A stretch of DNA of 64,000 nt. It comes from Lachnospiraceae bacterium. Lineage in GTDB: Bacteria; Bacillota; Clostridia; Lachnospirales; Lachnospiraceae. The number at the start of each line of letters is the position of its first letter. Within the stretch, counting starts at the first letter, position 1. Below are positions 45,471-64,000 of this stretch, piece by piece. Where the stretch lies: NCBI GenBank assembly GCA_017509985.1, contig JAFWOE010000005.1, positions 1-64,000 of the forward strand, in the 5' to 3' direction. The notes beneath the pieces are model-generated. The model did no database searches, had not been told where the DNA came from, and was given only the letters and a program-made list of their open reading frames with translations. The translations under genes and the position numbers were made by a program.

Positions 45471-47915
45471 ATGAATAATATAGACAATTCATTGCTGGAG
45501 AGAATTGACCGGATCTCACTCAGCCCCGCCAATACGGCATGGCGTGAAGCTGTCCGGACCGCTTCCTGGCATATCCATGCCGACCGTGAGCGCTGGACGG
45601 TCAAATCCTGGCTTGAAACCGAAGGGGAGGACCTGGAGATCCGCAGGGCAAAACTGCTGAAGTGCGTTCTGGACAACCTGACGATCGACATCCTTCCCTT
45701 TGACCAGATCGTCGCGCGTGCTACGCCTTCCGTCATCGGCTGCGCAACGGCCATGGACATAGCGGGAGATTATATTCCGGCCATCTGGAACGAAGACGGC
45801 GTGGTGGACGCTACCATGGATGCCAGTGTAAAAATCGATAACGAAAGTCTCGAAATACTGCGTACCGCTGCCAGGACCTTCGGCGGGAAAAGTGCCCCGG
45901 ATATGAGCTACAAAGCCTGGGAAGCTGCCATGGGTTCCTGGGGAAGGGATGCGGAGGATGCCAAATTAAAAGATCCTTCACTGGATGCATCCGTTTACGG
46001 ACAGGTCACGACCTCGCTGAACTGGGATAAGATCGTTAAAGTCGGCCTCCGAAGCTATATCGATGAAGCAAAGGCTCATCTGGAAGAATTCCGCTCCGGT
46101 ACGGATACGGATATCAATAAGGCCTATTTCTGGGAAGCGGCTATCATCGTACTGGAAGCGGTGATCGACCATGCTCACCGTTACGCGGATCTGGCCAGGG
46201 AAAAAGCCGCAGCCGAAGAGGACGGCTTCCGAAAAAAGCAGCTGCTTGAAATAGCAGAGATCTGTGAATATGTGCCGGAAAATGCGCCGCGAACTTTCCA
46301 GGAAGCGCTGCAGCTGATGAGTTTCTGCGGTGTGGCAAAGATCATGGAGCATCCGATGCACGGGAATCCTCACTGGGGAAGGGCAGACCAGTATCTCTAT
46401 CCGTTCTTCAAAAAGGATATCGAAAACGGCACGATAACGGTAGAACGTGCAGCAGAACTGATCGCGGACCTGATCGGCCGATGGGGAACCCAGTGTTTTG
46501 TCCAGCCGAAGAGCCAGAAACTTTCCCATCAGATCAATTTCTGCATCAACAACATCATGGTCGGCGGTGTAAATGCAGACGGTACCGATGCAAGCAACGA
46601 ACTCAGCTACCTGATCCTGCATGTGGTCGGCCTGCTGAAGATCTCCTCGCCGACAGTCGGCCTGAAATGGAGCCGGGTAACGCCTGACTGGCTTATCAAG
46701 AAAGCAATACGGACAAACATAGAAACAAAAGGCGGCATCCCGCTGTTTGAAAACGACGATGTCGTCATCGATCATTATGTGAAGGACGGTATTTCCTATA
46801 AGGATGCCGTAGAATGGAGCGGTCTGGGCTGTGTTTATCCCTGTATTCCTACGAGGGCGGAGCATACGGGAGCGCACGGGCTAGGAGCCTTCAACGTAGC
46901 CGGCTGCCTGCATCTGGCCCTTCACAATGGCATTGATATCAACGGAAAACAGACTGGCCTTGCAACCGGCGACCCGAGAACATTCAAAAGCTTTGAAGAA
47001 CTATATGATGCATTCTTAAAGCAGCATAAGAACTTAAGCCACCGCTGCTTCCGCCTCGGAAACATTGCAAGGAGGATCGAAAAGGATTACATCCGCCTTC
47101 CGCTGATCTCGGCCCTGGGCTTGCAGTTCTGCATGGACGCCGGAAGGGATACGGTCGATGCCGATCCGGACCATATGCTGCAGGGTATCGGAGACCGAGG
47201 CATCATCGATGCAGCCGATTCTCTTGAAGCCATCCGGTATCTGGTCTTTGATAAAAAACTTCTCTCCATGGAAGAGCTGATGGATGCCCTGGAAAACGAC
47301 TTTTCGGGAGAACGCGGGGAAGAGATCCGGCAGCTCTGCCTCAAGGCACCGAAATTCGGCAACGATATTGAAGAAGCGGACCTGATGGCCAGACGTGTCA
47401 GCGACGATTCCGCACGCATCATCCACAGTTACGACAACTCCCCGTTCAATAAGATCATGATCGCGAGGGAGGGCCTTGCCTGGCACTATTTCGGAGGCCT
47501 GGGCGTCGGAGCGCTGCCGAACGGACGAAAAGCCCTGGAACCGCTGGATGACGGTTCGATCTCGCCCATGCGCGGAATGGATACCAACGGTCCGACAGCC
47601 GTGCTCCATTCGGTATTGACGGCCCAGTTCAAGGATTCCTATGCCCAGGTGCTGAACCAGAAATTCAGCGCGGCCCTTTTAAAGGACGAGCAAGGGATCG
47701 ACAAGCTGGTCGCTTATACGAAAGCCTTTATGGCAGCCGGCGGAACCCACATCCAGTATAACATCATGGATTCCGAACAGCTGAAGGAAGCAAAAGTAAA
47801 ACCCGAAGACAACAAGGACCTCATTGTCCGTATCGGCGGCTTTTCGGCATACTTTGTCCAGCTCAGCAATGAGATCCAGGATGACGTCATTTATCGAAGC
47901 GAAATGGAACTGTAA
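45471..47915 (+). CDS. Glycyl radical enzyme of unassigned class
   Basis: This 814-residue protein belongs to the pyruvate formate-lyase/diol dehydratase-like superfamily. The radical glycine is Gly790 in RIGGFSAYF (787-795), and the active-site thiyl cysteine is Cys454 in GLGCVYPCIP. In glycerol dehydratase, CutC and related eliminases the cysteine is followed two residues later by a catalytic Glu (CVE); here that position is Tyr, so the reaction is probably different. The start at ATG 45471 follows AGAGGAG. A sulfatase gene follows after 27 bp. No activating radical-SAM enzyme is seen in the window, so it must be encoded elsewhere. Confidence 0.88.
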   Translation: MNNIDNSLLERIDRISLSPANTAWREAVRTASWHIHADRERWTVKSWLETEGEDLEIRRAKLLKCVLDNLTIDILPFDQIVARATPSVIGCATAMDIAGDYIPAIWNEDGVVDATMDASVKIDNESLEILRTAARTFGGKSAPDMSYKAWEAAMGSWGRDAEDAKLKDPSLDASVYGQVTTSLNWDKIVKVGLRSYIDEAKAHLEEFRSGTDTDINKAYFWEAAIIVLEAVIDHAHRYADLAREKAAAEEDGFRKKQLLEIAEICEYVPENAPRTFQEALQLMSFCGVAKIMEHPMHGNPHWGRADQYLYPFFKKDIENGTITVERAAELIADLIGRWGTQCFVQPKSQKLSHQINFCINNIMVGGVNADGTDASNELSYLILHVVGLLKISSPTVGLKWSRVTPDWLIKKAIRTNIETKGGIPLFENDDVVIDHYVKDGISYKDAVEWSGLGCVYPCIPTRAEHTGAHGLGAFNVAGCLHLALHNGIDINGKQTGLATGDPRTFKSFEELYDAFLKQHKNLSHRCFRLGNIARRIEKDYIRLPLISALGLQFCMDAGRDTVDADPDHMLQGIGDRGIIDAADSLEAIRYLVFDKKLLSMEELMDALENDFSGERGEEIRQLCLKAPKFGNDIEEADLMARRVSDDSARIIHSYDNSPFNKIMIAREGLAWHYFGGLGVGALPNGRKALEPLDDGSISPMRGMDTNGPTAVLHSVLTAQFKDSYAQVLNQKFSAALLKDEQGIDKLVAYTKAFMAAGGTHIQYNIMDSEQLKEAKVKPEDNKDLIVRIGGFSAYFVQLSNEIQDDVIYRSEMEL

Positions 47916-47942: not shown

Positions 47943-50210
47943 ATGGAAGACAATTTCAAGGGAAAAATTGAAATAAAATACAGCGATTCGACCCCTTACT
48001 GGGAAAAACCGAAATCCGCACCGGAGGGTGCTCCGAATGTACTGTATATCCTGCTGGATGATACCGGTTACGCCCAGGTCGGCTGTTACGGAAGCCTGAT
48101 CGAAACACCGAACATCGATGCGCTGGCTGCAGACGGTATACGATACAGGGATTTTCATGTGAATGCCATGTGTTCACCCACACGTGCAAGCCTGCTGACC
48201 GGATGCAACAACCATACGGTAGGTTTCTGCTGGCTGGGGGACAATGACTTTGGTTTCCCGAACCTGAGAGGAGAAGTTGATCCGAAATACGGCTTTATCA
48301 GTGAAACTCTTCATGAAGCCGGTTATTATACTTTCACTGTAGGAAAATGGCATTTGATCAATCATGAACATATGAGTCCTGCCGGCCCGTTTGACCAGTG
48401 GCCGAGCGGACGCGGGTTTGACAAGTCCTATACGCTTTTAAAAGCCTGCACCAGTCAGTGGAATCCCTTCCTGGTCCAGGGCAACGAGATCGTAGACCCG
48501 CCGAAATCCGCGGAAGAAGGATACCAGTTCAGTGAAGACATAGTAGATAAAGCAATCAAATACATCGGCGAACAGAAGTCCTTCGCTCCGGACCAGCCTT
48601 TCTTCGGATATGTAGCTTTCGGAGCCATGCATGGTCCTCATCATGCGCCGAAAGAGTATATCGACCGCTTCAAGGGGCAGTTTGACGAAGGCTGGGATGT
48701 ATACAGAGAAAAAGTATTTGCCCGCCAGAAAGAACTCGGCATTATTCCCGAAAACGCTGAACTTACCGAACGAAACAGCAAGGCACAGCCCTGGGACTCC
48801 TTAAATGATTATCAGAAAAAGGCTTTTGCCAGGTATATGGAAGTGTTTGCAGGCTTCTTGACCTATACGGATGATCAGATCGGACGCCTGGTCGATTATT
48901 TAAAGGAGATAGGGCAGTATGACAACACGATCATCGTCTTTATGACGGATAACGGCGCTTCTCCCGAAGGCGGCACACAGGGATGCTACAATGAGTTCTA
49001 CCACATCTTCACTCATGAGTGGGAAGGCCTTTTAAGCGATGAACTGCTGGAAAGCATGGGATCTGCACGGTCAAACTGCAACTATCCGAGCGGTTGGGCC
49101 TGGGCCGGAAATACACCTCTTAAGTGGTATAAATCCTGGGTACATGCCGGCGGCGTGAAAGTGCCCTGCATTATCACCTGGCCGAACGGTATTAAGGCCA
49201 AAGGTGAAGTAAGAAATCAGTTCCATCATGTCATCGACATTTATCCGACGATACTGGAACTGTGCGGCGTGAAACAGCCTGAGTATATCAAGGGAGTCAG
49301 ACAGGAAGCAAAGGCCGGCGTAAGTATGGCCTATACTTTTGATCATCCGGACGCACCCACAGAAAGGCACGTGCAGTATTTTGAGATGCACGGCAACCGC
49401 GGCATCTGGAAAGACGGATGGAAAGCAGTAACCGATCATGTGGATTCTCCTTCCTTCGAACAGGATATATGGGAGCTCTACAACACGGATGAGGACTTTT
49501 CCGAAGCACATGACCTGGCTTCGGTTTATCCGGAAAAGCTGGAGAAGCTTAAAACCCTCTGGTGGCATGAAGCCGGAAAATACGGTGTATTGCCTCTTAT
49601 AGAGAGCCATCACCGTACCCGTGACGGGTTTATGATCAATAAGATGTGGGTTCATTCCCCTTATGAGAACAGGACACATTACAGGCTTTATCCGGTTATG
49701 ATGCCAAGCCTTGCAAAACCGTATTTCGGCGGAAAGGATTTCAGCATTGTCACGCGGGCTGAGTTCAAAAAAGGCGACGAAGGAGTTCTTTTCTCTGTCG
49801 GACAAAATGCCGGAGGCTTCGCGGTTTACATTGAAGACGGAAAGCTTTCATTCCACAATAATTTCCTGATGAAGAGGGGCATTGATATTATTGCTGAATC
49901 ACCGGTCCCTGAAGGCCTGCATGACCTGGAATTCCTCTTTGAAAAGAAAGGACCGGACGCCGGAACCGGTTATCTGAAGATCGACGGACAGATCGTCGGA
50001 AAAGGAGAGATCGTCTGTTCACCGCTTTTCCCGGCACCCGGAGCAATGGCTGTGGGCAGATACGGCTCCAGTGTGATCAAACTGGAACACGAAGGCCGCG
50101 GTTTTTATAAGTACACCGGTAAGATCTCCTATGTGGATGTGGATCTGGACCGCCCGAACAGTGAATATGATACCCAGGTGCTGCTGCATCAGGCTCTTCA
50201 GTCTGAATAA
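47943..50210 (+). CDS. Cytoplasmic Cys-type sulfatase 1
   Basis: This 755-residue arylsulfatase-family enzyme hydrolyses sulfate esters. It has the metal-binding LLDDTGYAQ (about 35-43), formylglycine motif CSPTRASLLTG with Cys77, GKWHLIN and a late MTDNGA. Residues 560-755 form an additional beta-rich domain with GDEGVLFSVGQNAGGF that is shared by all four sulfatases here. There is no signal peptide, so it should act in the cytosol. The cysteine needs conversion to formylglycine by an anSME-type enzyme not present in the window. It lies 27 bp after the glycyl radical enzyme. Confidence 0.93.
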   Translation: MEDNFKGKIEIKYSDSTPYWEKPKSAPEGAPNVLYILLDDTGYAQVGCYGSLIETPNIDALAADGIRYRDFHVNAMCSPTRASLLTGCNNHTVGFCWLGDNDFGFPNLRGEVDPKYGFISETLHEAGYYTFTVGKWHLINHEHMSPAGPFDQWPSGRGFDKSYTLLKACTSQWNPFLVQGNEIVDPPKSAEEGYQFSEDIVDKAIKYIGEQKSFAPDQPFFGYVAFGAMHGPHHAPKEYIDRFKGQFDEGWDVYREKVFARQKELGIIPENAELTERNSKAQPWDSLNDYQKKAFARYMEVFAGFLTYTDDQIGRLVDYLKEIGQYDNTIIVFMTDNGASPEGGTQGCYNEFYHIFTHEWEGLLSDELLESMGSARSNCNYPSGWAWAGNTPLKWYKSWVHAGGVKVPCIITWPNGIKAKGEVRNQFHHVIDIYPTILELCGVKQPEYIKGVRQEAKAGVSMAYTFDHPDAPTERHVQYFEMHGNRGIWKDGWKAVTDHVDSPSFEQDIWELYNTDEDFSEAHDLASVYPEKLEKLKTLWWHEAGKYGVLPLIESHHRTRDGFMINKMWVHSPYENRTHYRLYPVMMPSLAKPYFGGKDFSIVTRAEFKKGDEGVLFSVGQNAGGFAVYIEDGKLSFHNNFLMKRGIDIIAESPVPEGLHDLEFLFEKKGPDAGTGYLKIDGQIVGKGEIVCSPLFPAPGAMAVGRYGSSVIKLEHEGRGFYKYTGKISYVDVDLDRPNSEYDTQVLLHQALQSE

Positions 50211-50213
50211 TGA

Positions 50214-51146
50214 TTATTGATCCGCTTCCGAGGACGTTATCTGGGAAGCCGCAATCGAACCGATCAGGTCTCGTATGGTGTTGCTGCTTTTTGAGGGACA
50301 CCATGCGAGACTTATATAATGGTTTTCATTCGGAGCATGATGGACAGGAAAGAGCCGTATCTGGTCACCAAAACGGGTTCCGAATCCACTGCCTACGACA
50401 AATATATATTTTCTGCCGTTCTTGATCAGATCGAAGAGTTCTTCGCCTTCGGAAACATATCGGATGCCTCTCGGCTCGAACCCGGTTGCGCGGCAGAGCC
50501 TGAGTGCCCGCTCATGTGCCCCGTACTGCTGTTCCTGAAGAAAAGAACACAGGTCATATCTGTGCAGACGCCCGTAATCCAGCTTGTTTCCCTTGACCGC
50601 ATCGGCATTTGCGGAAACCGCAAAATAGGAAGGCATTTTTTTTATATCATAGATCTCTGTCCCGGTCAGGGTGGAAACCGCGGCATGAAAGGAAAAAATA
50701 CAGTCAAACGAACCGCTGATCAGTCCCTCTCTTAGCATCCTCAGATCGACAATATTGACATCAACTGCAGTTTCGGGATGCTGGTTCTGGAAACGCTGGA
50801 TCATAGGCGTACATTCATTATAGATTTCGTTCACATTCATAATGGCGATGTGCAGGCAGTTTCCGTCATCTCGGATCCTCTGTTTGTTGCGAAGCACTGC
50901 ATTGACTGTCTGGAAGGCGGGAATCAGTTCCTGATACAGCATTCTTCCGTCCTCGGTCAGGGTCAGCCCGCGGTTTGAGCGTGTGAACAGCGTCAGATTC
51001 AGTGTTTCTTCCAGCTTCTGGATCCGTCTGGTCACCGAACTCTGGCTTAAATACATGGAATCCGCCACCTGTGTCACATTATGATACTCCGCAACACGCA
51101 GAAACAATTCCATCTGAAGCAGCGATATTTCACCGAAATTATCCAT
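50214..51146 (-). CDS. LysR-type regulator
   Basis: This 310-residue regulator has an N-terminal winged helix-turn-helix (about 8-66, FLRVAEYHNVTQVADSMYLS) and a substrate-binding-like effector domain (about 95-300). It faces away from the first dctP gene and converges on sulfatase 1 with a 3-bp gap. The shared 25-bp dyad lies in its divergent upstream region, and LysR proteins typically bind dyads near -65 of target promoters, so it is the best candidate to control this regulon. GGGAGGATC precedes the start. Confidence 0.9.
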   Translation of the reverse strand: MDNFGEISLLQMELFLRVAEYHNVTQVADSMYLSQSSVTRRIQKLEETLNLTLFTRSNRGLTLTEDGRMLYQELIPAFQTVNAVLRNKQRIRDDGNCLHIAIMNVNEIYNECTPMIQRFQNQHPETAVDVNIVDLRMLREGLISGSFDCIFSFHAAVSTLTGTEIYDIKKMPSYFAVSANADAVKGNKLDYGRLHRYDLCSFLQEQQYGAHERALRLCRATGFEPRGIRYVSEGEELFDLIKNGRKYIFVVGSGFGTRFGDQIRLFPVHHAPNENHYISLAWCPSKSSNTIRDLIGSIAASQITSSEADQ

Positions 51147-51405: not shown

Positions 51406-52626
51406 ATGAAGAAAAAGCTTTTATCTATCGTAATTATTACATCTATGCTTTTCGCACTGTGCTCCTGCGGAGGAAGTTCGAACACTTCACCAGCTGCAGC
51501 TGCAAGTTCAGCGAAAAGTGATACTTCTGCTGCTGCAGCATCTTCCGCAAAGAGTGAAGCTCCCGCAGCAGCCTCATCTTCCGCAAAGAGCGAAGCTCCT
51601 GCAGCCGAAGTATCTTCCGCAGCCAGCGAAGCTTCTGCAGCTGAAACAGCCGACATTCCGGAAGTATCCGCAGACGGCCCGACTTTTAAACTGAAATTTG
51701 CCTCTTCCGAGAACGAAAATACTCTGCGTTATCAGCTGATCGAGAAACCGGTTATGGATCTGATCACTGAGAGAACCAACGGAAGGATTACTTTTGACTT
51801 TTTCCCGAGCAGCACACTGGCAGGCCCCGGAAGCATCATCAAGGGTATGCAGGACGGAACCGTTGATATGGGTATGGATAACATCAACTCTTATCCGGGT
51901 GTTTTCCTCTATTCCGAGCTGCTGACCTATCCCGGCATATACCTTGGCGCGGATCATGATGAAAAAACTGAAAATATCTTTGAGTATAGTCGTAAATATG
52001 CTGCACAGGAATATGCTGCCAACGGCGCTCATCAGATCATGACCGCCCCGTCCGCCGGCAACGTAGTTTTAATGACCACATTCCCGGTCGAATCCGTAGA
52101 TTCCTTTAACGGAAAAACTATCTGCATCAATGGTGCCATTACAGATATGTTTAACAATTCCGGCGCAGCCATTACCTGGACTGTTCCCCCCGAGCAGTAC
52201 GAAGCATTCCACCTGAATGTCATTGACGGCACTGTGAACGGACCTGCCGTACTGGAGGGATTCAAACTCTACGAAGTGCTGGATTACGCATACTATATTC
52301 CCTTCGCGATCGTTACACAGTCTATGTACATCAGCCAGAAGACCTATGAGTCTCTTCCCGAAGACCTGCAGGCTGCGATCGATGCCATCTGCCTTAGCGA
52401 AGAAGTAAAAGAAATCAACAAAAAATATGTGGAAGCAATGACCAAGCAGGTTGAAGAAGCCTGTGCGACAAATCCCAACTTTGTTTTTGCTGATCTGCCG
52501 GATGAGGTTTCAGAATTCATGCAGCAGCAGTGTGCTGCCGGAATCGAAGAAAAAATAGCCGAGTTGAATGCAGCCGGTCTTGACGGCGACGGCGCTATGG
52601 AGCTCCTGAACTCTTTCAAGAAGTAA
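51406..52626 (+). CDS. dctP: TRAP transporter solute-binding lipoprotein (DctP) 1
   Basis: This 406-residue lipoprotein has a signal peptide with lipid Cys21 (ALCSCGG), a Ser/Ala/Lys/Glu-rich repeat linker (about 30-80) and a DctP domain (about 90-400) with LITERTNGRITFDFFPSSTL and FHLNVIDGTVNG. It captures an organic acid outside the cell for a TRAP carrier. It is closely related to the second DctP at 58452. No membrane subunits are adjacent; it probably shares the DctQM pair encoded at 56-58 kb. GAAGGAGATTCTGAA precedes the start. Confidence 0.92.
   Translation: MKKKLLSIVIITSMLFALCSCGGSSNTSPAAAASSAKSDTSAAAASSAKSEAPAAASSSAKSEAPAAEVSSAASEASAAETADIPEVSADGPTFKLKFASSENENTLRYQLIEKPVMDLITERTNGRITFDFFPSSTLAGPGSIIKGMQDGTVDMGMDNINSYPGVFLYSELLTYPGIYLGADHDEKTENIFEYSRKYAAQEYAANGAHQIMTAPSAGNVVLMTTFPVESVDSFNGKTICINGAITDMFNNSGAAITWTVPPEQYEAFHLNVIDGTVNGPAVLEGFKLYEVLDYAYYIPFAIVTQSMYISQKTYESLPEDLQAAIDAICLSEEVKEINKKYVEAMTKQVEEACATNPNFVFADLPDEVSEFMQQQCAAGIEEKIAELNAAGLDGDGAMELLNSFKK
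51493..51645 (+). repeat. Repeat-coded linker in DctP1
   Basis: In-frame repeats encode units like ASSAKSEAPAA. They tether the binding domain to the lipid anchor. Confidence 0.7.
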
Positions 52627-52665: not shown

Positions 52666-52707
52666 AGAGAACCGCAGCGCTTTGTTATCAAAGAATTGCG
52701 GTTCTCT
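52666..52707 (+). terminator. Attenuating hairpin between dctP1 and sulfatase 2
   Basis: A perfect 11-bp stem AGAGAACCGCA/TGCGGTTCTCT encloses an inner CTTTG/CAAAG stem and is followed by TTTAAAAAGG. It may partly stop transcription or protect the 3' end of the dctP mRNA, lowering sulfatase relative to binding protein. Confidence 0.65.
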
Positions 52708-52725
52708 TTAAAAAGGAGAAGCAGT

Positions 52726-55002
52726 GTGAAGAATGAGGATTTTAAAGGTGTAATCAATATGAGGTTTTCGGATTCCACCCCATGGTGGAAAGAAGAAAAA
52801 CATGCCCCAAAGGATGCGCCAAATGTTATTTTTATCGTATTGGATGATACCGGTTATTCTCAGCTTGGCTGTTACGGATCCTTGATCCCCACTCCCAACA
52901 TTGATGCGATTGCGAAAGACGGACTGCGCTACACGGATTTCAACACCTGTGCGCTTTGTTCACCTTCCAGGGCAAGCCTCTTGACCGGATATGACAATCA
53001 TACGGTCGGAATGGGCTTTTTGGCGGAGATTGATATGGGCTTTCCGTCACTGACAGGGACAGTGGGAGAGCAGTATGGCTTTTTAAGCGAAGTCCTTAAG
53101 GATAACGGGTATTCCACCTATTGCATCGGAAAATGGCATCTTTGCAGGGATGAAGAAGTCTCCGGTGCGGGTCCGTTTGATCACTGGCCCTTAGGCCGCG
53201 GATTCGAACGCTATTACGGTTTTCTGCGCGGGGATACCAACCAGTTCTATCCCGAGCTTGTTCAGGACAACAGCATCATCGATCCGCCTGCACTGCCGGA
53301 GGACGGTTATCATTTAAGCAGTGATCTGACAGACAAGGCGATTCGTTTCATTGCTACCGGAAAGTCCGTCCGTCCAGAGAAACCGTTTTTCTGTTATCTG
53401 GCTTACGGAGCGACACATTCCCCTTACCATGCCCCGCAGGAATACATTGACCGTTTTAAGGGTGTATTTGACGAAGGCTACGAAGTATATCGTGAAAAAG
53501 TCTTTAGACGCCAGCAGAAAATGGGCCTTTTGCCGGAAGGTGCGGAGTTGACGGAGATCAATGAATTCACCTGTCCCTGGGATTCTCTCGACGACTGGCA
53601 TAAAAAGGTATTCGTACGCTATATGGAAGCGTTTGCAGGACTTTTATTTTATACCGATGAGCAGATCGGGCGCTTGACAGACTATTTAAAGAAGATCGGC
53701 GAATATGACAACACCATGATCGTCCTGCTTTCGGATAACGGTGCTTCAGCAGAAGGCGGCGTCAACGGCTGCATGTCGGAATTCTACCATTTTTCGACGA
53801 GACAGCAGCCGCCGTTCCCGACTAAAGAGGAGTACGAACGGATCGGTACTGCGGAAAGCTTTACTGTGTATCCCACCGGATGGGCCTGGGCAGGCGATAC
53901 CCCTCTGAAACTGTATAAACACTGGGTACATAACGGGGGAGTTAAAGTTCCGTGTATCATCAGCTATCCGTCAAAGATTCAGGAAAAAGGAGCGTATCGG
54001 AGGCAGTTCCATCATATCACCGATATCTTCCCGACAGTCTTAGATGTCTGCGGTATTAAGACGCCCGAAAAGATCCACGGTTATGTGCAGGAGCCGCGCC
54101 CGGGCATCAGCATGCGCTACAGCTTCGATGCTGATGCGGATGCACCTTCCATGAGGCATGTCCAGTTTTTCGAGAACGAAGGCAACCGGGCTTTGTGGAA
54201 GGACGGATGGAAAGCAGTAGCAAATCACGTGATAAGCCCCGATTTTGATGAGGATCAGTGGGAGCTTTACGATACTTCAAAAGATTTTTGTGAAAACCAC
54301 GATCTTGCGGATCAGTATCCCGAAAAGCTTCAGGAGCTTAAAGATCTTTGGCAGCAGGAAGCGGAAAAAGTCGGGGCCTTCCCGATGATCGAAAGCCATC
54401 TGCGCACAATCAATAATTTTGATATCGGAAAACAGCGCCAGCCGAGACCGAGAAAACCGATAACGCATTATACTTATCTTCCTGAAATGGATATCAACGC
54501 GCCGGTTCCGATGCTTTCTGACAAATCCTTTGAGATCACAGCCAATGTGGATTATAAAGCCGGCGATGAAGGCGTTCTGTTCAGCAGCGGATTCAATATC
54601 GGAGGATACGTCCTTTTCATTCTGGACGGAAAACTGCGTTTCCATTACAATTTCCAGGCAATCCGTTATTTTGATGTGGAAAGCTCGACTCCTTTGCCGG
54701 AAGGCCGTCACCTGTTCGGCTTTGCCTTCCGCTTTGAGGAAAAGGGCAGGGGATACGGCGTAATGACCATAGACCATAAACCGGTGGGAGAGGAAGTTGA
54801 GTTTTCGGATACAGGATTCCTTCTTCGGATCTGCGTCGGTGTGGGACGCTACGCCGGTTCACCGGTCTATGCAGGACATAAAGGTACCAGGGATTACTGT
54901 AAGTATAAGGGCGTCTTTGACCGGACAGATATATGGATCAGTCATCCGGAAACGGAAGAGGACCAGTACGAAAAACTGCGCTATGCTTGGGAGAAAGAGT
55001 GA
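52726..55002 (+). CDS. Cytoplasmic Cys-type sulfatase 2
   Basis: This 758-residue sulfatase is paralogous to the others here. It has VLDDTGYSQ, the formylglycine motif CSPSRASLLTG with Cys78, CIGKWHLC and LSDNGAS. The C-terminal beta-rich domain contains GDEGVLFSSGFNIGGYVLF. GTG 52726 is chosen as the start because AAAAAGGAG lies upstream and it aligns with the N-termini of sulfatases 1 and 3; the longer frame from TTG 52696 runs through the hairpin. No signal peptide is present. Confidence 0.92.
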   Translation: MKNEDFKGVINMRFSDSTPWWKEEKHAPKDAPNVIFIVLDDTGYSQLGCYGSLIPTPNIDAIAKDGLRYTDFNTCALCSPSRASLLTGYDNHTVGMGFLAEIDMGFPSLTGTVGEQYGFLSEVLKDNGYSTYCIGKWHLCRDEEVSGAGPFDHWPLGRGFERYYGFLRGDTNQFYPELVQDNSIIDPPALPEDGYHLSSDLTDKAIRFIATGKSVRPEKPFFCYLAYGATHSPYHAPQEYIDRFKGVFDEGYEVYREKVFRRQQKMGLLPEGAELTEINEFTCPWDSLDDWHKKVFVRYMEAFAGLLFYTDEQIGRLTDYLKKIGEYDNTMIVLLSDNGASAEGGVNGCMSEFYHFSTRQQPPFPTKEEYERIGTAESFTVYPTGWAWAGDTPLKLYKHWVHNGGVKVPCIISYPSKIQEKGAYRRQFHHITDIFPTVLDVCGIKTPEKIHGYVQEPRPGISMRYSFDADADAPSMRHVQFFENEGNRALWKDGWKAVANHVISPDFDEDQWELYDTSKDFCENHDLADQYPEKLQELKDLWQQEAEKVGAFPMIESHLRTINNFDIGKQRQPRPRKPITHYTYLPEMDINAPVPMLSDKSFEITANVDYKAGDEGVLFSSGFNIGGYVLFILDGKLRFHYNFQAIRYFDVESSTPLPEGRHLFGFAFRFEEKGRGYGVMTIDHKPVGEEVEFSDTGFLLRICVGVGRYAGSPVYAGHKGTRDYCKYKGVFDRTDIWISHPETEEDQYEKLRYAWEKE

Positions 55003-55148: not shown

Positions 55149-56228
55149 TTACCCGAGCGCGATCCTGCTGTATTTGTAGATCGCGTCTTTATATGCCTGC
55201 GGGTGGCCGAAGTCGGGCACGAAGAACGGACGTTCTTTAAAGCCGGGAGCAAATTCATCCACATAGGCTTTAGCCAGGGCGTCCAGCGTTTCGACGTCGG
55301 CGTCGGGAGGGAGAACGGGGGGATGGATTCCGATCATCAGCTTGTCGCCGTACTCGGCACGAATCATCCGTGCGTCGTTCATCGGCTGCGGCATCCACAT
55401 GTCGTCTCCCTGGTCGAGCATGGCCGGAACCGTCATTTCATTCAGCCCGCAGCTATGGTGCAGGAACCAGAGGCCTTCGCTGTGGCAGTAGTCCACGATG
55501 CGCTTGATGGCCGGAGCGACGATTTCCTGGCAGGTGGCACAGGAGAACATGGGACCGCGCTGAGTACCCCAGTCGTCGTGAAAGTGCACACCGTCAAAGC
55601 TGAAACAGCTGCGCAGACGTCCGATCAGTTCGATATAAAGATCGGCCAGCTTGTCAAAAAGGGCGCTCACGTCCTCCTGGGAATCTTCGTCAATGAGGGC
55701 AACCACAGCGCCTTCAAAGCCCATAAAGGAAATCAGGCGTTCGAACATCCCGTTGTGGAAGGTTACGAAGCGGGCTCGGTCGTCGTTTTCGATGGCGGCA
55801 TTGATCTTTTTCGCCGACTCCCAGTCAAAAGTGTCGGGATCGGGGAAGGTTACGGTGCTTTCCCAGTCTTCGACATCCTCGAACACATGTGGATATTTGG
55901 GATCCTCCATGGACCCGTGGGCTTCCGGCATAAAGATCCAGGGGATACCGAACATATCAGGCCCGCCCTTTTCTTCGTCACTCATCGCCGGACCAAGATC
56001 GCGGACTTCGCCGCGGGCGATGCAGTCCGGGATAACACGGGAGTTGAACTGCAGGATATCAGTAGTGAAACTGGGGATCCATAGGGCTCCTTCACGCCGC
56101 AGAGCCCGGTTCAGATTTTCGCGCGGACTGATAGGATAGTCACGCCTCGGAACGGGAGGCCATCCGGGACAGATCGTGAAGGTTCCCGTAATATTCAGTT
56201 CACTTTCAGAAAAAGCAGAAATATTCAT
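55149..56228 (-). CDS. Uroporphyrinogen-decarboxylase-family protein
   Basis: This 359-residue TIM-barrel protein resembles URO-D relatives, including methyltransferases such as MtaA, more than haem-pathway HemE. A zinc-ligand-like HHSCG motif lies near residue 240, VHFHDDWG is near 203-210, and PPVLPPDADVETL is in the late part. The second MtaA cysteine is not obvious. It is the last gene after dctQ and dctM, so it probably acts on the imported compound, by methyl transfer or decarboxylation. No corrinoid protein or partner methyltransferase is in the window. Confidence 0.78.
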   Translation of the reverse strand: MNISAFSESELNITGTFTICPGWPPVPRRDYPISPRENLNRALRREGALWIPSFTTDILQFNSRVIPDCIARGEVRDLGPAMSDEEKGGPDMFGIPWIFMPEAHGSMEDPKYPHVFEDVEDWESTVTFPDPDTFDWESAKKINAAIENDDRARFVTFHNGMFERLISFMGFEGAVVALIDEDSQEDVSALFDKLADLYIELIGRLRSCFSFDGVHFHDDWGTQRGPMFSCATCQEIVAPAIKRIVDYCHSEGLWFLHHSCGLNEMTVPAMLDQGDDMWMPQPMNDARMIRAEYGDKLMIGIHPPVLPPDADVETLDALAKAYVDEFAPGFKERPFFVPDFGHPQAYKDAIYKYSRIALG

Positions 56229-56253: not shown

Positions 56254-57564
56254 TTATGTATACAGCATGTTGGGAAGCCACATGGCGATTCCCGGGAAGA
56301 TCGCCATAAGAATGGCAACAATAATGTACGGAATGATAAATGGTACACAACCTTTGAAACATTTCTCCAGGGGGATTCCGGTGATACCGGAAGTAACATA
56401 ACAGCCCATGCCTACAGGAGGAGTGATTGCACCAAGGCCCGTTACCATAACAGCGTAGCAGCCGTACCAGATGGGGCTGTAGCCAAATCCTGCAAGGATC
56501 GGCAGGAAAAGAGGCGCTGTGACCAGTACACCTGCCATCGCATCCATGAAGCAGCCAAGGATTGCGAAAATGACCGTCAGGATCATGACAAAGGCGAATC
56601 CGGAAAGATTCATCGCGGTTACCCAGTTTCCAATTTTGGTGGAAAGGCCGCTTAAGGTAAAGAACTTGCCGAATACGTTAGTTCCTGCAAGCAGGCAGTA
56701 CATCATGCCGGCAAGCATTAAGGAATTCAGGATCGCATTGCCCAGCATCTTGATGGAAAAGCGTCTGTGAGCGATAACGACGATAAGCATCAGCACGATA
56801 CCGACAACACCGGCTTCGGTCGGAGTAAACCATCCGGTAAACATACCGATAAAGGAGGCGGCGAATACAAGGACGACTTCAATGACATAACCGTCTTTGA
56901 GCGCTTTCATCTTTTCCTTAAATGTGGTCTTTTCCCCGCGGGGAGCAGCAGACGGGTTTATGCGGACCCAGATTTGGATTATAAGGATGAATGTCAGCAT
57001 CAGAACAATACCGGTAAAGATACCGCCCATAAAAAGCTGGCCGATGGAAGCCTGCACAGAGGCACCATAGGTTATCAGCGGGAGGGATGGTGGGATCAGG
57101 GTCGAAAGAGTCGCACCGGCACCAACGGCACCTGACGAAAGTTCATCACTGTATCCGTGCTTCTTCATTTCCGGGATGGCTACACGGCACATCAGGCCGC
57201 TGGTTGCAACTGCGGAACCGCAGATCGCACCGAAGACCGCACAGGAGATCTGAACCGCACTGCCCATGCCTCCGGGGATCCTGCCAAGGACGACCTTGAA
57301 GGACTTGAACAGATTTGCACCGATCCCGGATTCCGATGCGATCTCGCCCATCAGCATGAACATCGGTGCAACGGAAACCGTATAGCTTGTAAATGTATTA
57401 ATAAACGCATCACTTAAGAATGAGGATGCCGCGGAAAAGCTTTTCAGCAGGATTGCGCATCCTACCAGGCCGCAGCTCATCATACAGATATAAATCGGAA
57501 CACCGAGGAATATCAGGATCAGGAATACTGCCAGGAAAATACCGGCTATAGCTCCGCTTGACAT
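56254..57564 (-). CDS. dctM: TRAP transporter large permease (DctM)
   Basis: This 436-residue membrane protein has about 12 segments and DctM motifs such as PMFMLMGEIASESGI, GATLSTLIPPSLPLITYG and the late GLGAITPPVGMGCYVT. It is the transport-catalysing subunit that moves the acid with sodium ions. Its start shares 1 bp with the stop of dctQ, and it is followed by the UroD-family gene after 25 bp. Confidence 0.95.
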   Translation of the reverse strand: MSSGAIAGIFLAVFLILIFLGVPIYICMMSCGLVGCAILLKSFSAASSFLSDAFINTFTSYTVSVAPMFMLMGEIASESGIGANLFKSFKVVLGRIPGGMGSAVQISCAVFGAICGSAVATSGLMCRVAIPEMKKHGYSDELSSGAVGAGATLSTLIPPSLPLITYGASVQASIGQLFMGGIFTGIVLMLTFILIIQIWVRINPSAAPRGEKTTFKEKMKALKDGYVIEVVLVFAASFIGMFTGWFTPTEAGVVGIVLMLIVVIAHRRFSIKMLGNAILNSLMLAGMMYCLLAGTNVFGKFFTLSGLSTKIGNWVTAMNLSGFAFVMILTVIFAILGCFMDAMAGVLVTAPLFLPILAGFGYSPIWYGCYAVMVTGLGAITPPVGMGCYVTSGITGIPLEKCFKGCVPFIIPYIIVAILMAIFPGIAMWLPNMLYT

Positions 57565-58130
57565 TATGAATTCACCTCCTCATCCGATTTTAATGCTTCT
57601 TTTGTCTGTTGGATCATTTCATCGGCTTCATCCACGACGGGGGCCATTCCCGCATCTGGATAAAAGAGCCGGATAAGATTCAGCACAAAGGTAAACGCCG
57701 TAACGACCAGGCCGATGCTCATAACCATGTAAACAAGATAGATCGGGATCTTGTAGCGTTCGGTTGACAGTCCGGACGCATAAGTCTGCGGGATGTACCG
57801 TATGCAGACCCATGCCGCAATGCCTACAAGCGCTGCAGAAAGAACAAGGTCGAATATATCAATGATGCGTTTAGGGATCTTCGGGAGTTTTCCGGTGATT
57901 ATGGATACCGTAACATGACCGCCAGTCAGTGTCGTCCTTGCCATGGAAAGGACCATTACAAGGAGAACGCCGTACTGGACAATCTCGATCATTCCCGAAA
58001 TGGTTACGTTAAACAGTTTACGACCTACGATATTCACCGCGACAAGCATTACGATAACAAAGAAGATTACGGAAGCGATGCGGCATAATATCATTGATAG
58101 TTTGTCTACAAATTGAAAGAATTTTTCCAT
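57564..58130 (-). CDS. dctQ: TRAP transporter small permease (DctQ)
   Basis: This 188-residue protein has four membrane segments (about 15-38, 50-70, 90-110, 130-155) and a charged C-terminus. DctQ proteins support DctM in TRAP carriers. AGGGAAAGAC precedes the start. It has its own promoter with a copy of the shared operator, separate from the upstream dctP2. Confidence 0.92.
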   Translation of the reverse strand: MEKFFQFVDKLSMILCRIASVIFFVIVMLVAVNIVGRKLFNVTISGMIEIVQYGVLLVMVLSMARTTLTGGHVTVSIITGKLPKIPKRIIDIFDLVLSAALVGIAAWVCIRYIPQTYASGLSTERYKIPIYLVYMVMSIGLVVTAFTFVLNLIRLFYPDAGMAPVVDEADEMIQQTKEALKSDEEVNS

Positions 58131-58451: not shown

Positions 58452-59669
58452 TTATTTAGAGAAGCTGTCCAGAAGTGCTTTTGCACCATCTGCATCAAGA
58501 CCGGCTGCCTTCAGCTCAGCGACTTTTGCTTCTACGCCTGCTGCACAGGATTCCTGCATGGAAGCAGCGACATCAGCCGGGAACTCTGCGAAAGCAAAGT
58601 TTGCATTTTCCTTACATGCCTCTGCTACCTGCTCGTTCATGGCTTCTACATAAGCCTTGTTGATTGCGATCAGTTCGTCACTGAACTGGATAGCGTCAAG
58701 AGCTGCCTGAAGATCTTCCGGCATGGAATCATATACTTTCTGGCTCATTACATAGGTGCTGGTAATTGTTGCAAACGGCATACTGTATGCATGGTCCAGA
58801 ACTTCGTATAATTTGAATGCCTGGAGAACGCCGGAACCGTTGATGGTTCCATCGATAACGTTCAGGTGGAAGGCTTCGTACTGCTCGGGGGGTACGGTCC
58901 AGGTAGTGGCTGCTCCGTTGTCTTCGAACATCTTCGCATAAGTGGCATTGCAGCAGATGGTCTTTCCGGCATAATCGGAAGTGCTGTTTACCGGGAAGGT
59001 GCACATAAGCACTGTATCAAGAGCCGGGCAGGTGCCAAGAAGGTAAATACCGTTGTCTTTGTATTCCTGAGTTGCATATGCATCGCAGTAAGCCTTAATG
59101 TTGGCTGCTTTTTCATCAAAGTTCGTTCCGAGCATAACGCCGGGTGTGGACATCAGTTCGGAGTAAAGGAAAACGCCGGGATAGGAGTTGATGTTGTCCG
59201 TACCGATATCGCAGGTGCCGTCCTGGCATCCCTTGATGACAGCGCCGCTGCCAACTAGAGAGGAGCTCGGGAAGAAAGTGAAGGTGATCCTTCCGTTTGT
59301 TCTTTCGGTGATGAGTTCCATGATCGGTTTCTCAAGCATCTGGTAACGGAGCGTTCCTTCGTTTTCTGTGGAAGCGAATTTCAGATTGAAGGTGGGGCCG
59401 TCTGCAGATACTTCCGGAATGTCAGCTGCTGCGGGAGCGTCGCTTTCTGCGGAAGAAGCTTCAGCTGCGGGAGCTTCACTTTTTGCGGAAGAAGCTGCTG
59501 CTGCGGGGGCTTCACTCTTTGCGGAGCTGGCCGCTGCTGCGGGAGCTTCGCTTTTAGCTGAACTTGCAGCCGCTGCAGGAGCAGCGCTGCTTCCTGATGA
59601 TGAGCCGCCGCATGCGCACATGGACAGTACCATTGCTGCAGCGAGAAGGGTTGCAATAATCTTTTTCAT
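58452..59669 (-). CDS. dctP: TRAP transporter solute-binding lipoprotein (DctP) 2
   Basis: This 405-residue paralog of DctP1 has a signal peptide with lipid Cys20 (SMCACGG), a repeat linker (29-81) and a DctP domain starting near ADGPTFNLKFAST. The ligand-region sequences TWTVPPEQYEAFHLNVIDGT and the C-terminal LDADGAKALLDSFSK are almost the same as in DctP1, so both may bind similar compounds. It lies between sulfatase 3 and dctQ. GAAAGGAAAGAATT precedes the start. Confidence 0.92.
   Translation of the reverse strand: MKKIIATLLAAAMVLSMCACGGSSSGSSAAPAAAASSAKSEAPAAAASSAKSEAPAAAASSAKSEAPAAEASSAESDAPAAADIPEVSADGPTFNLKFASTENEGTLRYQMLEKPIMELITERTNGRITFTFFPSSSLVGSGAVIKGCQDGTCDIGTDNINSYPGVFLYSELMSTPGVMLGTNFDEKAANIKAYCDAYATQEYKDNGIYLLGTCPALDTVLMCTFPVNSTSDYAGKTICCNATYAKMFEDNGAATTWTVPPEQYEAFHLNVIDGTINGSGVLQAFKLYEVLDHAYSMPFATITSTYVMSQKVYDSMPEDLQAALDAIQFSDELIAINKAYVEAMNEQVAEACKENANFAFAEFPADVAASMQESCAAGVEAKVAELKAAGLDADGAKALLDSFSK
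59427..59585 (-). repeat. Repeat-coded linker in DctP2
   Basis: Four to five in-frame units encode AASSAKSEAPAA-like repeats. They are more regular than in DctP1, which suggests recent expansion by slippage. Confidence 0.75.
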
Positions 59670-59757: not shown

Positions 59758-62034
59758 TTATTCGCTCTCGCGGTGGAGCTCGATGGCATCGATGCGGTCT
59801 TCGTGAGTCTCCGGTGTTCCGATATCGAATTCCACGCGTTTGTACGAGCCGGTGTAGGCAAAGTGGTTCGGGCGGCTGTGATGACTGTGCTTAACGGCGG
59901 AAGCAGAGTAGCGCCCTACGCCGATACAGCTTTTTACCATAAATCCGCTGTCCGAAAACTCGACTTTGTCTCCTGCGGGCACGCCGTCGATCGTCATCTG
60001 GCCGAATCCATGACCGGGCTCTGTGCATTCGAAACGGAAGCCGAATTCATGCTGCCCCTCCGGGAGAACGGTGTTTGTCTCCACATCCGTGTAAACACTG
60101 TCCACAAAGTTGTAGTGGAAGCAGAGCTTTCCGTTTTCTACGAAGAGCGCATATCCTCCGATGTTGAAGCCGCAGGCGAAGAGGACACCTTCATCCCCGG
60201 TTTTATAATCCACCTGGGCAGTCAGCCGGAAGGACTTGTTTTTCAGTCTCGGCACCGGTGCATTGATATCCATTCCCGCAATATAGGTGAAATGCTGCTT
60301 TGGCGGCACGGGTTTAAGCTTTACAAGTGCGCCCCACTGAATGCCGTTCCGGGTGGAAAAGTGGCTTTCCATCATCGGGAATACGTTGTTCTTTTCCGCC
60401 TCCTGCCACCAAAGCTCTTTTAGCTCCTTAAGCTTTTCGGGGTAGACATCGCAGAGATCATTTGATTCGCAGAAATCTGCCTCCATATCGTAAAGCTCCC
60501 AGTGGTCAGCATCGAAGGACGGAGAATCCACATGATCAGCGACGGCTTTCCACTTTCCGCAGCGGATGCCGCGGTTGCCTTCCATTTCAAAGAACTGCAG
60601 TGCCTTACGTGTTGGCTCGTCCGGGTTGTCAAAGGTGTAGATCATGCTGATGCCTGGACGGGGCTCCTGTTTGTAGCCGTTTACAACTTCGGGCATCGGG
60701 ATGCCGGCAGCCTCTAAAACAGTCGGCCAGAGGTCCGTTACATAATGGAACTGGCGCCGGTAGCTGCCTTTGTCCTTGATACGGTCCGGCCAGGTCATCA
60801 CGAAGGGCACCCTGACACCTCCGTTATGCACCCAGGCCTTGTAGAGCCTCAAGGGTGTATTGCCGGCCCAGGCCCAGCCTGCGGGATAAAGATTCAGACT
60901 GTCGGGCGTGCCGATCCGATTGTATTCTTCTTCAGTGATCATCGGCGGTTCCATACCAGTATGAATATGATAATGTTCGTTGAGACAGCCGTTCTTGCCG
61001 CCGCCTACTGCCGCGCCGTTGTCGGCCATGAGGACGATCAGTGTGTTGTCGTACTGGCCAATTTCCTTTAAGAAGGCAGTCAGACGGCCGATCTGCTCGT
61101 CCGTGTAGGCCATGAAGCCGGCAAAAGCTTCCATGTAACGGGCAAAGACTTTGCGCTCCCAGTTGTTTAGCTCACCCCAGGGGCGGACCCAGCGGTCGAT
61201 CTCTGTAAGCACCGCGCCTTCCGGAAGCAGGCCCATTTCCTGCTGGCGTTTAAAGACCTTTTCGCGGTAAACTTCGTAACCCTCATCAAACTGGCCGGCA
61301 AAGCGGTCGATATATTCAAGAGGTGCATGATGGGGTGAATGCATCGCGCCCAGCGCCAGATAGCAGAAGAAGGGCTTATCGGGATAGACGCTTTTTTCCG
61401 TACCGATATAGCGGATGGCATGGTCAATGAGGTCGGCGCTTAAGTGGTAGCCTTCTTCTGGTGTTGCCGGAGGATCGATCATCGTGTTGTCCTGAACCAG
61501 CTCAGGATAGAACTGGTTTGTGGCGCCGTTTAAAAACCCGTAATAACGCTCAAAACCGCGTCCAAGGGGCCAGTTGTCATACGGGCCGGCCGAAGTCATC
61601 TCGCTTTCGTTGCCGAGATGCCATTTACCGACGCAGAAAGTGGCGTAGCCGTTCTCACGCAGCACCTCCGGCAGAAAGCCATACTTTTTGTCAATGGTTC
61701 CCCGCAGATTGGGATAGCCCATGTCATTGGCGGAAAGAAAGCTCATGCCGACAGTCTGATTGTGGTAGCCTGTCATCAGACAGGAGCGGGTGGGAGAGCA
61801 CAGCGGACAGACATTAAAATCCGTATATCGCAGTCCGTCTGCCGCGATAGCATCCATGTTCGGTGTAGGCACTAGGCCTCCGTAGCAGCTTAAGTGCGAA
61901 TAGCCGGTATCATCCAGCAGAATATAGAGCACATTAGGCGCTCCTTTTGGAGCATGGGGCTTTTCGGGCCACCAGGGGGTGGAATCCAGGATACTGGTCT
62001 TTATAACACCCTTGAACTCTTCGTTTATAGCCAT
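59758..62034 (-). CDS. Cytoplasmic Cys-type sulfatase 3
   Basis: This 758-residue sulfatase has LLDDTGYSHLS, the formylglycine motif CSPTRSCLMTG with Cys79 (a second Cys where the other copies have Ala-Ser), VGKWHLGN and MADNGA. The beta-rich C-terminal domain (GDEGVLFACGFNIGGYALF) is retained. No signal peptide is present. It follows sulfatase 4 with a 21-bp gap and precedes dctP2 on the same strand. Confidence 0.93.
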   Translation of the reverse strand: MAINEEFKGVIKTSILDSTPWWPEKPHAPKGAPNVLYILLDDTGYSHLSCYGGLVPTPNMDAIAADGLRYTDFNVCPLCSPTRSCLMTGYHNQTVGMSFLSANDMGYPNLRGTIDKKYGFLPEVLRENGYATFCVGKWHLGNESEMTSAGPYDNWPLGRGFERYYGFLNGATNQFYPELVQDNTMIDPPATPEEGYHLSADLIDHAIRYIGTEKSVYPDKPFFCYLALGAMHSPHHAPLEYIDRFAGQFDEGYEVYREKVFKRQQEMGLLPEGAVLTEIDRWVRPWGELNNWERKVFARYMEAFAGFMAYTDEQIGRLTAFLKEIGQYDNTLIVLMADNGAAVGGGKNGCLNEHYHIHTGMEPPMITEEEYNRIGTPDSLNLYPAGWAWAGNTPLRLYKAWVHNGGVRVPFVMTWPDRIKDKGSYRRQFHYVTDLWPTVLEAAGIPMPEVVNGYKQEPRPGISMIYTFDNPDEPTRKALQFFEMEGNRGIRCGKWKAVADHVDSPSFDADHWELYDMEADFCESNDLCDVYPEKLKELKELWWQEAEKNNVFPMMESHFSTRNGIQWGALVKLKPVPPKQHFTYIAGMDINAPVPRLKNKSFRLTAQVDYKTGDEGVLFACGFNIGGYALFVENGKLCFHYNFVDSVYTDVETNTVLPEGQHEFGFRFECTEPGHGFGQMTIDGVPAGDKVEFSDSGFMVKSCIGVGRYSASAVKHSHHSRPNHFAYTGSYKRVEFDIGTPETHEDRIDAIELHRESE

Positions 62035-62055: not shown

Positions 62056-64000
62056 TTATTCCGCGTCGCGATGCAGCTCGATGGCATCCAGCTGGTCCTG
62101 GATCGTTTCTGGCGTGCCTATGAATAAGTCCACACGGCTGTAGTCACCGGTGTATGCGTAATAATCAGGTTTCGTCTTATGGCTGCGTTTAACGGCAGAG
62201 GAGGCGTAGCGGCCGATGCCGATGCAGCTTTTTACCATGAAACCGGTGTCGTTGAAACGGATCTTTTCGCCGGCCGGTATTCCGTCGACAGTAATGTAGC
62301 CGATGCCGGATCCGGGCTCTTCATAGTCAAAGGCGAATCCGAACTCGTGCTTTCCTTCCGGCAACGGGATTTCGCTTAATACCTCCGTTTCAGCCTCAGC
62401 TACATAGTTGTAATGGAAGCAAAGCTTTCTGTCTTCCACATAGAGCGCATAGCCGCCGATGTTGAAGCCGCATGCGAAGAGAACGCCTTCGTCGCCCGGT
62501 TTGTAGTCCACCTGGGCATTGATGCGGAATGATTTGTTCTTCAGTCGCGGGATGGGGGCATTGATCTCCATGCCTGCGTAGTAAGCGAAATGCTGGGTCA
62601 GGGGAGGCGGCGGTAGCTTGACCTGTGAACCGAAGGTAAAACCGTTGCGCCTTGTCATTATGCTTTCGAGCATGGGAAAGACCCCGTATTTCCCGGCTTC
62701 CTGCCACCAGAGATCGACGAGTTCCTTAAGTTTCTCCGGATATACCTGAGCCAGGTCCTTCGTCTCGCAGAAGTCTTCATCTACATGGTAGAGTTCCCAT
62801 ACATCTTCATCAAAAGAAGGGCTGTCCACATGATTGGCTACAGCCTTCCAGCCATCCTTCCAGATACCTCGGTTGCCTTCCACCTCAAAATACTGCATCT
62901 TTTTATGAGTTGGTTCGTCGGGATTGTCGAAAGTGTAGCACATGCTGACACCGGGGCGTTCCTCCTGCTCGTAGCCGCAGACTTTTTCAGGCATCGGGAT
63001 GCCGGCCGCTTCCAGTACTGTGGGCCAGAGGTCTGTTACATAATGGAACTGGCGGCGATAGCTGCCTTTGTCTTTAATACGGTCGGGCCAGGTCACGATG
63101 CAGGGAACCTTGACGCCGCCGTTGTGGATCCAGTGCTTATAAAGCTTGAGCGGGGTATTGCCTGCCCAGGCCCATCCGGGCGGATAAAGAGGATAGCTTT
63201 CCGGTCCGCCGATGGATTCGTACTGTTTTTCATTAACCAGTCCGGGTTCCCGGTCAGTGTTAATATGGTAAAGCTCGCTTAAAGCGCCGTATTTACCGCC
63301 GCAGGGCGCTGCGCCATTGTCGCTCATGAAAACGATCATCGTATTGTCGTACTGCCCGATCTCTTTAAGAAAGGCGATCAGACGGCCGATCTGTTCGTCA
63401 GTATAGTTTAAGAAGCCTGCGAAAGCTTCCATATAGCGGGCAAAAACTTTCTTTTCCCAGTCACTGAGTTCACCCCATGGACGTGCCCAGCGGTTGATTC
63501 CGGTGAGTTCCGCGTTTTCCGGAAGAATACCCAGTTCCTTCTGACGGGCGAAGACTTTTTCACGGTAGACTTCGTAACCTTCGTCAAAGAAGCCTTTGAA
63601 TTTTTCCATATATTCTGCGGGGGCATGATGAGGCGAATGCATGGCGCCAAGCGCAAGGTAACAGAAGAAGGGCTTGTCAGGATATACGCTCTTCTCTGTG
63701 CCGATATAACGAATTGCGTGATCGATAAGATCAGCGCTTAAGTGATAGCCTTCATCCGGTGAAGCCGGTGGATCGATCATCGTATTGTCCTGAACAAGCT
63801 CAGGGTAGAACTGATTCGTTGCACCGTTTAAGAAGCCGTAAAAACGTTCAAATCCACGGGAAAGCGGCCAGTGATCAAAGGGACCGGCACAGGTCATTTC
63901 GCTCTCATTACAGAGATGCCATTTACCTACGCAGAAAGTAGCATAACCGTTCTCACGAAGTACTTCGGACAGGAAGCCGTACTTCTTGTCGATGCGCCCT
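62056..64000 (-). CDS. Cytoplasmic Cys-type sulfatase 4 (5' end outside window)
   Basis: The frame is open to the window edge, so the start and the formylglycine motif lie beyond it. The visible 647 codons contain VGKWHLCN, MSDNGAAPCGGKYGAL and the same C-terminal domain (GDEGVLFACGFNIGGYALY). It is most similar to sulfatase 3, with long identical stretches, indicating a recent tandem duplication. It is the first visible gene of the minus-strand operon. Confidence 0.92.
   Translation of the reverse strand, partial: GRIDKKYGFLSEVLRENGYATFCVGKWHLCNESEMTCAGPFDHWPLSRGFERFYGFLNGATNQFYPELVQDNTMIDPPASPDEGYHLSADLIDHAIRYIGTEKSVYPDKPFFCYLALGAMHSPHHAPAEYMEKFKGFFDEGYEVYREKVFARQKELGILPENAELTGINRWARPWGELSDWEKKVFARYMEAFAGFLNYTDEQIGRLIAFLKEIGQYDNTMIVFMSDNGAAPCGGKYGALSELYHINTDREPGLVNEKQYESIGGPESYPLYPPGWAWAGNTPLKLYKHWIHNGGVKVPCIVTWPDRIKDKGSYRRQFHYVTDLWPTVLEAAGIPMPEKVCGYEQEERPGVSMCYTFDNPDEPTHKKMQYFEVEGNRGIWKDGWKAVANHVDSPSFDEDVWELYHVDEDFCETKDLAQVYPEKLKELVDLWWQEAGKYGVFPMLESIMTRRNGFTFGSQVKLPPPPLTQHFAYYAGMEINAPIPRLKNKSFRINAQVDYKPGDEGVLFACGFNIGGYALYVEDRKLCFHYNYVAEAETEVLSEIPLPEGKHEFGFAFDYEEPGSGIGYITVDGIPAGEKIRFNDTGFMVKSCIGIGRYASSAVKRSHKTKPDYYAYTGDYSRVDLFIGTPETIQDQLDAIELHRDAE

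Follow-up and report, generated by a model that had tools for sequence, protein, structure and literature searches.

The window analysed here is the whole 64,000-nucleotide stretch of DNA, and its focus is a gene encoding a glycyl radical enzyme (GRE, the query) that is followed by an island of sulfatase and transporter genes. The features, with window positions and the basis of each assignment, are as follows.

45471..47915, + strand: CVYP glycyl radical enzyme, 814 aa (open reading frame, PF02901 and PF01228, clade alignment and tree, AlphaFold2 model)
46830..46832, + strand: Cys454 codon TGT, expected thiyl site (alignment)
46836..46838, + strand: Tyr456 codon TAT, two residues after the cysteine (C+2), where eliminases have Glu (alignment)
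47838..47840, + strand: Gly790 codon GGC, expected glycyl radical site in RIGGFS (alignment)
47943..50210, + strand: S1-type arylsulfatase, probably cytosolic, formylglycine site CSPTR, separated from the GRE gene by 28 bp (PF00884; 280 bits to 1hdh; motif, N-terminus)
50214..51146, − strand: LysR-type regulator
51406..52626, + strand: TRAP transporter solute-binding protein DctP (NF037995 above cut-off)
52696..55002, + strand: second arylsulfatase-type sulfatase, CSPSR (Pfam, motif)
55149..56228, − strand: 359-aa protein, URO-D/methyltransferase-like by eye (inspection)
56254..57564, − strand: TRAP large permease DctM (PF06808)
57564..58130, − strand: TRAP small permease DctQ (PF04290)
58452..59669, − strand: TRAP solute-binding protein DctP (PF03480)
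59758..62034, − strand: third arylsulfatase-type sulfatase, CSPTR (Pfam, motif)
62056..64000, − strand: fourth arylsulfatase-type sulfatase, extending beyond the window end (matched at C22:62095-64323; Pfam, motif)

The reading frame of the GRE has no internal stop and a good ribosome-binding site lies ahead of its start. The protein matched PF02901 with 446 bits (cut-off 24.3) and PF01228 with 88 bits (cut-off 22.2). The hallmark of the GRE superfamily is a C-terminal RVxG[FWY] motif together with a mid-protein cysteine (PMC11528403); residues 787-791 of the query read RIGGF, with Ile for the Val that is present in several of its relatives, and residues 453-454 read GC. An earlier note on this DNA had described Cys454 and Gly790 as intact and the Glu at C+2 as replaced by Tyr, and reading of the codons confirmed both statements, with Tyr or Trp at C+2 throughout the clade described below. 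A base-calling error at Tyr456 was excluded since the position is aromatic in 15 of 15 clade members and TAT is at least two base changes from a Glu codon. The second cysteine to which the note had drawn attention, Cys458, exists in the query, but four of the 13 aligned sequences have another residue there (two Ser, two Ala), which ruled it out as a second catalytic cysteine and leaves it no evident role.

To collect relatives, six short peptide patterns taken from the query were run against 84,980 species genomes, a procedure by which members can be missed. Close relatives turned up at seven loci, with 51-72% best-segment identity, and L023 among these loci carries two of them. Whole-genome searches added a paralogue in the same genome (C22:73683-76118, 63% identical to the query); two congeneric genomes contributed three further loci (51-61%) and another Bacillota genus two (63-64%). 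The clade comprises 15 sequences including the query, 14 with CVYP and one (L035) with CVWP, the other members being 51-72% identical to the query; L061 and L062 share the Cys loop with L020 and L026 and may come from the same organisms, and the count of 15 is perhaps slightly inflated. Hosts are Bacillota from herbivore guts and digesters, one Coriobacteriaceae bacterium and one groundwater Acidobacteriota. The clade is rare, since a search of 391 genomes from the class and 398 from the phylum found members only in the query's own genome and those two of the other Bacillota genus. Alignment and tree took in 13 members, L061 and L062 (both CVYP) being counted on top. The aligned sequences have Tyr (12) or Trp (1) at C+2, and the Trp of L035, a single sequence, suggests that the aromatic ring may matter more than the phenol proton. 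Invariant in all 13 are His353, Gln354, Trp400, Glu464, Arg542, Asp575, Arg576, Arg666, Glu667, Trp671 and His672.

No activase gene adjoins the query GRE, and to this extent the earlier note was right that the enzyme is not coupled to one. The contig nevertheless carries a GRE activase gene 28 kb away, approximately at C22:76157-77098 (TIGR02494 match above cut-off), and an activase-GRE pair is the usual arrangement in the clade. The C22 activase adjoins the 63% paralogue, which has the query's Gly loop and its LIVRIGGFSAYFVQLS stretch. Members encoded directly behind an activase gene are this paralogue, L020, L021, L022, the first copy of L023, L024, L025, L026 and L036, and a LysR gene, often divergent, stands beside the pair at the paralogue, L023, L036 and L025. 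The order at L023 is activase, GRE 1, sugar-type binding protein, permease, ATPase, permease, esterase fragment and GRE 2, and it is GRE 2 that is the query's nearest relative (72%). The lack of an adjacent activase is explained by the activase 28 kb away beside the paralogue and by L023, where one activase precedes two CVYP GREs; as a simple reading, we infer that the C22 activase serves both the query and its paralogue. The L023 esterase gene (L023:9529-9933), between the ABC genes and GRE 2, is seemingly reduced to a C-terminal fragment.

A Shine-Dalgarno-like AAAGGG lies ahead of the start of the adjoining sulfatase, and the GRE and sulfatase genes look like one operon. This sulfatase matched the Pseudomonas aeruginosa arylsulfatase 1hdh with 280 bits over residues 30-550 and has the C-x-P-x-R site in common with it, but carries about 200 extra C-terminal residues. 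C-x-P-[TS]-R is present in all four island sulfatases, and their hydrophilic N-termini make a cytosolic location probable. PF00884 matched six genes in the genome, the four strongest being those of the island and the other two, with lower scores, lying on another contig. The island also contains an anaerobic sulfatase maturase, the genome's only match at E 1e-40 or better (359 bits against a cut-off of 349). The maturase gene and all four arylsulfatase-type genes of the genome are no more than about 20 kb from the query GRE. Beyond the sulfatases are a permease judged by eye to be of the TSUP type and, further on, the paralogue operon, which includes a BD-FAE family esterase. The 359-aa URO-D-like protein had no match in Pfam, NCBIfam or PDB. 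From its gene content the island seems to import and desulfate small molecules.

Within the genus the maturase scored above cut-off in two of seven genomes, the two with these sulfatases; in the second genome (G004) they lie beside a flavin oxidoreductase-like gene, with no GRE before the contig end. The coupling of the GRE to a sulfatase, as the earlier note had put it, applies at this locus with its 28-bp gap but not to the other clade members, beside which no sulfatase was seen and esterases recur (esterase-like genes lie near four members: the own paralogue, L021, L023 and L037). A sulfatase as a general partner of the clade is unsupported, and because the link was found in this genome alone it says little about the clade's reaction. 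Hydrolysis of a sulfate or carboxylic ester ahead of the radical step would fit both the sulfatases here and the esterases near four members. Literature searches found no paper naming a GRE-sulfatase pair, and nothing relevant on uncharacterised GRE-esterase pairs.

The position of the clade was examined in a quick maximum likelihood tree of 41 sequences with CutC, HypD, a propanediol-dehydratase-like enzyme, YbiW, PflD and PflB as references, HPAD, IAD, AAD, PhdB, BssA and MasD being left out. The 13 members were united with an SH-aLRT of 100 on a long stem. The CMGY GRE on contig C32 of the same genome came out as their sister with support of 97, on a long branch about whose placement the program warns; like the clade, it has a GDRG loop and a GG in its Gly loop. 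The CIDG/CVDG GREs joined at 92, below the starred level. An NCBIfam search brought the query near the cut-off of no equivalog: among eliminases it scored 431 of 1000 bits for HpsG, 403 of 1100 for HypD and 353 of 1050 for CutC, it remained far under the cut-off for the decarboxylases HPAD (290 of 1150) and IAD (341 of 1100), and it reached 82 of 994 bits for pyr_form_ly_1. Its best solved relatives scored about 350 bits, with an identity of about 32% at most and of 29% or less over structural alignments. The CXE motif of GRE eliminases is CVY in the query, with Tyr or Trp in all members, and the adjacent CC of pyruvate formate-lyase is likewise absent. Unlike the aminoacyl (Ala/Ser/Thr) radical enzymes, in which the radical glycine is replaced, the query keeps Gly790. 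CVY was found in none of the known GRE classes compared, the Cys loops of PhdB and of arylacetate decarboxylase (AAD) lying outside the comparison; clustering with a known class that has the same CVY and a proven reaction, which the earlier note had named as the finding that would speak against it, is to that extent not in evidence. No description of the CVYP clade was found. Judged from the sequences compared, to which PhdB and AAD did not belong, CVYP is apparently an undescribed GRE clade within the known superfamily.

An AlphaFold2 model of the query, built from 11 sequences, had a pTM of 0.84 and a mean pLDDT of 77, with pLDDT below 50 for most of the Cys loop (455-471) and the Gly loop (788-799), in which confidence is lowest. 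It matched solved PFL-like GREs with Z of 27-38. The top matches, tied at 37.1-37.9, were propanediol, glycerol and hydroxyproline dehydratases, and eliminases as a whole scored 36.6-37.9, followed by AAD (35.2), MASS (34.1), HPAD (34.0), BSS (33.1) and PFL (27.2). We take such matches of a predicted structure to indicate the fold and not the reaction.

GRE eliminases (1r8w, 5i2g, 9rco; HplG 7vua; HypD 6vxc; CutC) resemble the query in fold, length, Cys and Gly loops and activase family. They differ from it in overall sequence (about 25-32% identity), in the CXE Glu that is Tyr in the query and in the radical site, which is AG in these enzymes and GG here. In glycerol dehydratase the substrate-binding residues, which we take to be His164, Ser282, Glu435 and Asp447, align with Thr180, Asn299, Tyr456 and Gly470 of the query. 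The diol site has therefore not merely lost its base, since His164, Ser282 and Asp447 are replaced as well. The decarboxylases HPAD, IAD and AAD have the GRE fold in common with the query, and Tyr456 stands where HPAD has Glu505 and IAD has Glu502. As both these enzymes cleave a C-C bond (PMC9248008) and yet keep the Glu, it is no clean marker of reaction type. A phenolic substrate, as for the decarboxylases, is thinkable because an arylsulfatase adjoins the query GRE. The non-CXE GREs that were read, BssA (CMSP) and PflB (CVSP), both make or break C-C bonds.

The residue pattern makes it probable that the query GRE is no CXE-type eliminase. Glu-assisted ketyl 1,2-elimination is improbable, given that neither the CXE Glu nor the remaining polar ligands of the dehydratases are retained. 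We tentatively favour a catalytically competent GRE of an undescribed clade for which C-C cleavage or rearrangement would be likelier than Glu-assisted elimination, and whose substrate would be freed from sulfate or carboxylic esters. The C-C chemistry itself is a guess, and the only positive argument for it, a thin one, is that the non-CXE BssA and PflB act on C-C bonds. In such a mechanism a radical-SAM activase, presumably the one 28 kb away, would make the Gly790 radical, which would draw a hydrogen atom from Cys454, and the resulting thiyl radical would take a hydrogen atom from a small and probably anionic substrate, its charge being a guess. The substrate radical would probably not pass through Glu-assisted ketyl 1,2-elimination and would more likely break or rearrange a C-C bond, we guess in a decarboxylation-like or retro-aldol-like step. 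Tyr456 may pack against or hydrogen-bond the substrate, and Asp575, Glu667 and the conserved arginines may hold its polar groups. In the present host, TRAP transporters would take up the substrate, or the alcohol or phenol at its core, esterified with sulfate, and, if the operon logic is followed, the sulfatase of the adjoining gene would free it. The earlier note had proposed an uncharacterised reaction (C-C, C-S or C-O cleavage, or an addition); this agrees with the absence of CVY from the known classes read, but C-O elimination of the dehydratase type has become less likely with the loss of the polar ligand set.

What counts against the favoured reading is that eliminases are nearest in overall sequence and in fold (Z 36-38, against 32-34 for X-succinate synthases and HPAD) and that the role of the base may have shifted to Asp575 or Glu667. 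The enzyme may then be a 1,2-eliminase (a dehydratase or C-X lyase) in which Asp575, Glu667 or His353 replaces the CXE Glu, a possibility to be taken seriously although we find it rather doubtful. The closest folds and bit scores are those of eliminases, Asp575 and Glu667 are invariant and by MASS spacing would lie on pocket-facing strand positions, and the neighbouring CIDG/CVDG group of the tree has an acid one carbon shorter at C+2. Against a moved base, the other diol ligands are replaced together with the Glu, and the CXE Glu is the residue at work in the structures of GRE eliminases that PMC8473560 discusses. One form of the favoured C-C chemistry would be an aryl- or alkyl-acetate decarboxylation as in PhdB, where the thiyl radical would take the hydrogen alpha to the carboxylate, CO2 would leave and a His would protonate the product. 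PhdB is proposed to abstract a hydrogen atom, a His serving as donor (PMC7670169, PMC9248008), and His353 and His672 are invariant in the clade; PhdB comes from sewage Acidobacteria (PMC9226047), and the clade includes one sequence from an Acidobacteriota and several from digesters. With decarboxylase scores as far under the cut-offs as those of HPAD and IAD, we consider this analogy improbable.

Addition of a substrate radical to fumarate, as in the X-succinate synthases (BssA/TutD 4pkc, MasD 9o8u), would be in keeping with BssA, in which C+2 is also not Glu, and with the distances from the cysteine to two pocket positions, which are those of MASS: Asp575 (+121) falls on Thr598 and Glu667 (+213) on Glu690, residues that line the fumarate site (PMC12358834), and TutD Ile619 aligns with Ile579 of the query in agreement with this spacing. 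However, the fumarate Arg at Cys+15 (BssA Arg508, MASS Arg492) is replaced in the clade by His, Glu, Asp469 or a gap, and the fold match is weaker. Small FeS subunit, CoA-transferase and beta-oxidation genes were not noticed beside any member among the gene calls, which were the sole source for small ORFs, and a fumarate-adding enzyme appears very unlikely. Equally small is the chance of a decayed or regulatory pseudoenzyme, which would accommodate the lost catalytic residue and the query copy's lack of an adjacent activase but not the full-length frame, the intact Gly loop, the invariant Cys and Gly and the many residues that are invariant across phyla.

The Glu at Cys+2 serves both to recognise and to explain GRE eliminases, and a clade spanning phyla in which this Glu and the polar site are replaced while the radical machinery is kept would point to new anaerobic radical chemistry. 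More broadly, the CVYP clade and its CMGY and C(I/V)DG neighbours from the same genus might form a major non-CXE branch of GREs with an undescribed reaction type, acting on organic compounds delivered in the form of sulfate or carboxylic esters, which we regard as conceivable and somewhat doubtful. The host genus may be a rich source of undescribed animal-gut reactions, as four of seven sampled species have 15-28 GRE-type genes per genome: PF02901 matches numbered 15 in the query's own 2.2-Mb genome, 28, 23 and 23 in three congeners, and 0 or 1 in the other three. A single contig of one genome (G005, C19) has nine of these matches.

Several of these other GREs have features of their own. The GCMGY GRE on contig C32 (L013:3365-5935; L049:13397-15937), likely sister of the CVYP clade, is preceded by a URO-D-like gene and by one that matches UGSC weakly; an activase gene lies downstream of it, and peptide-type ABC genes are in the vicinity. 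The own genome has 13 URO-D-family matches, 12 of them above cut-off, and several lie near GRE genes (C10, C32, C43, C48). GCIDG/GCVDG enzymes, with Asp for Glu at C+2, are encoded at L010:2401-4866, L010:12019-14415 and L037:7050-9362, the last directly before a CVYP GRE. Two further GREs, L016:2615-5134 (−) and L017:1875-4520 (+), pass the cut-off for (2S)-3-sulfopropanediol dehydratase of the HpfG type (1014 and 1057 against 1000 bits). Three GRE homologues on own-genome contigs C31 and C34 (L018:2412-4793, −; L011:1663-4080, +; L011:11804-14182, −) have Thr at the position of the radical Gly (RVATYS, RVSTWS); two of the three have CSLP or CTFP Cys loops, and all resemble the threonyl-type aminoacyl radical enzymes of PMC11528403.
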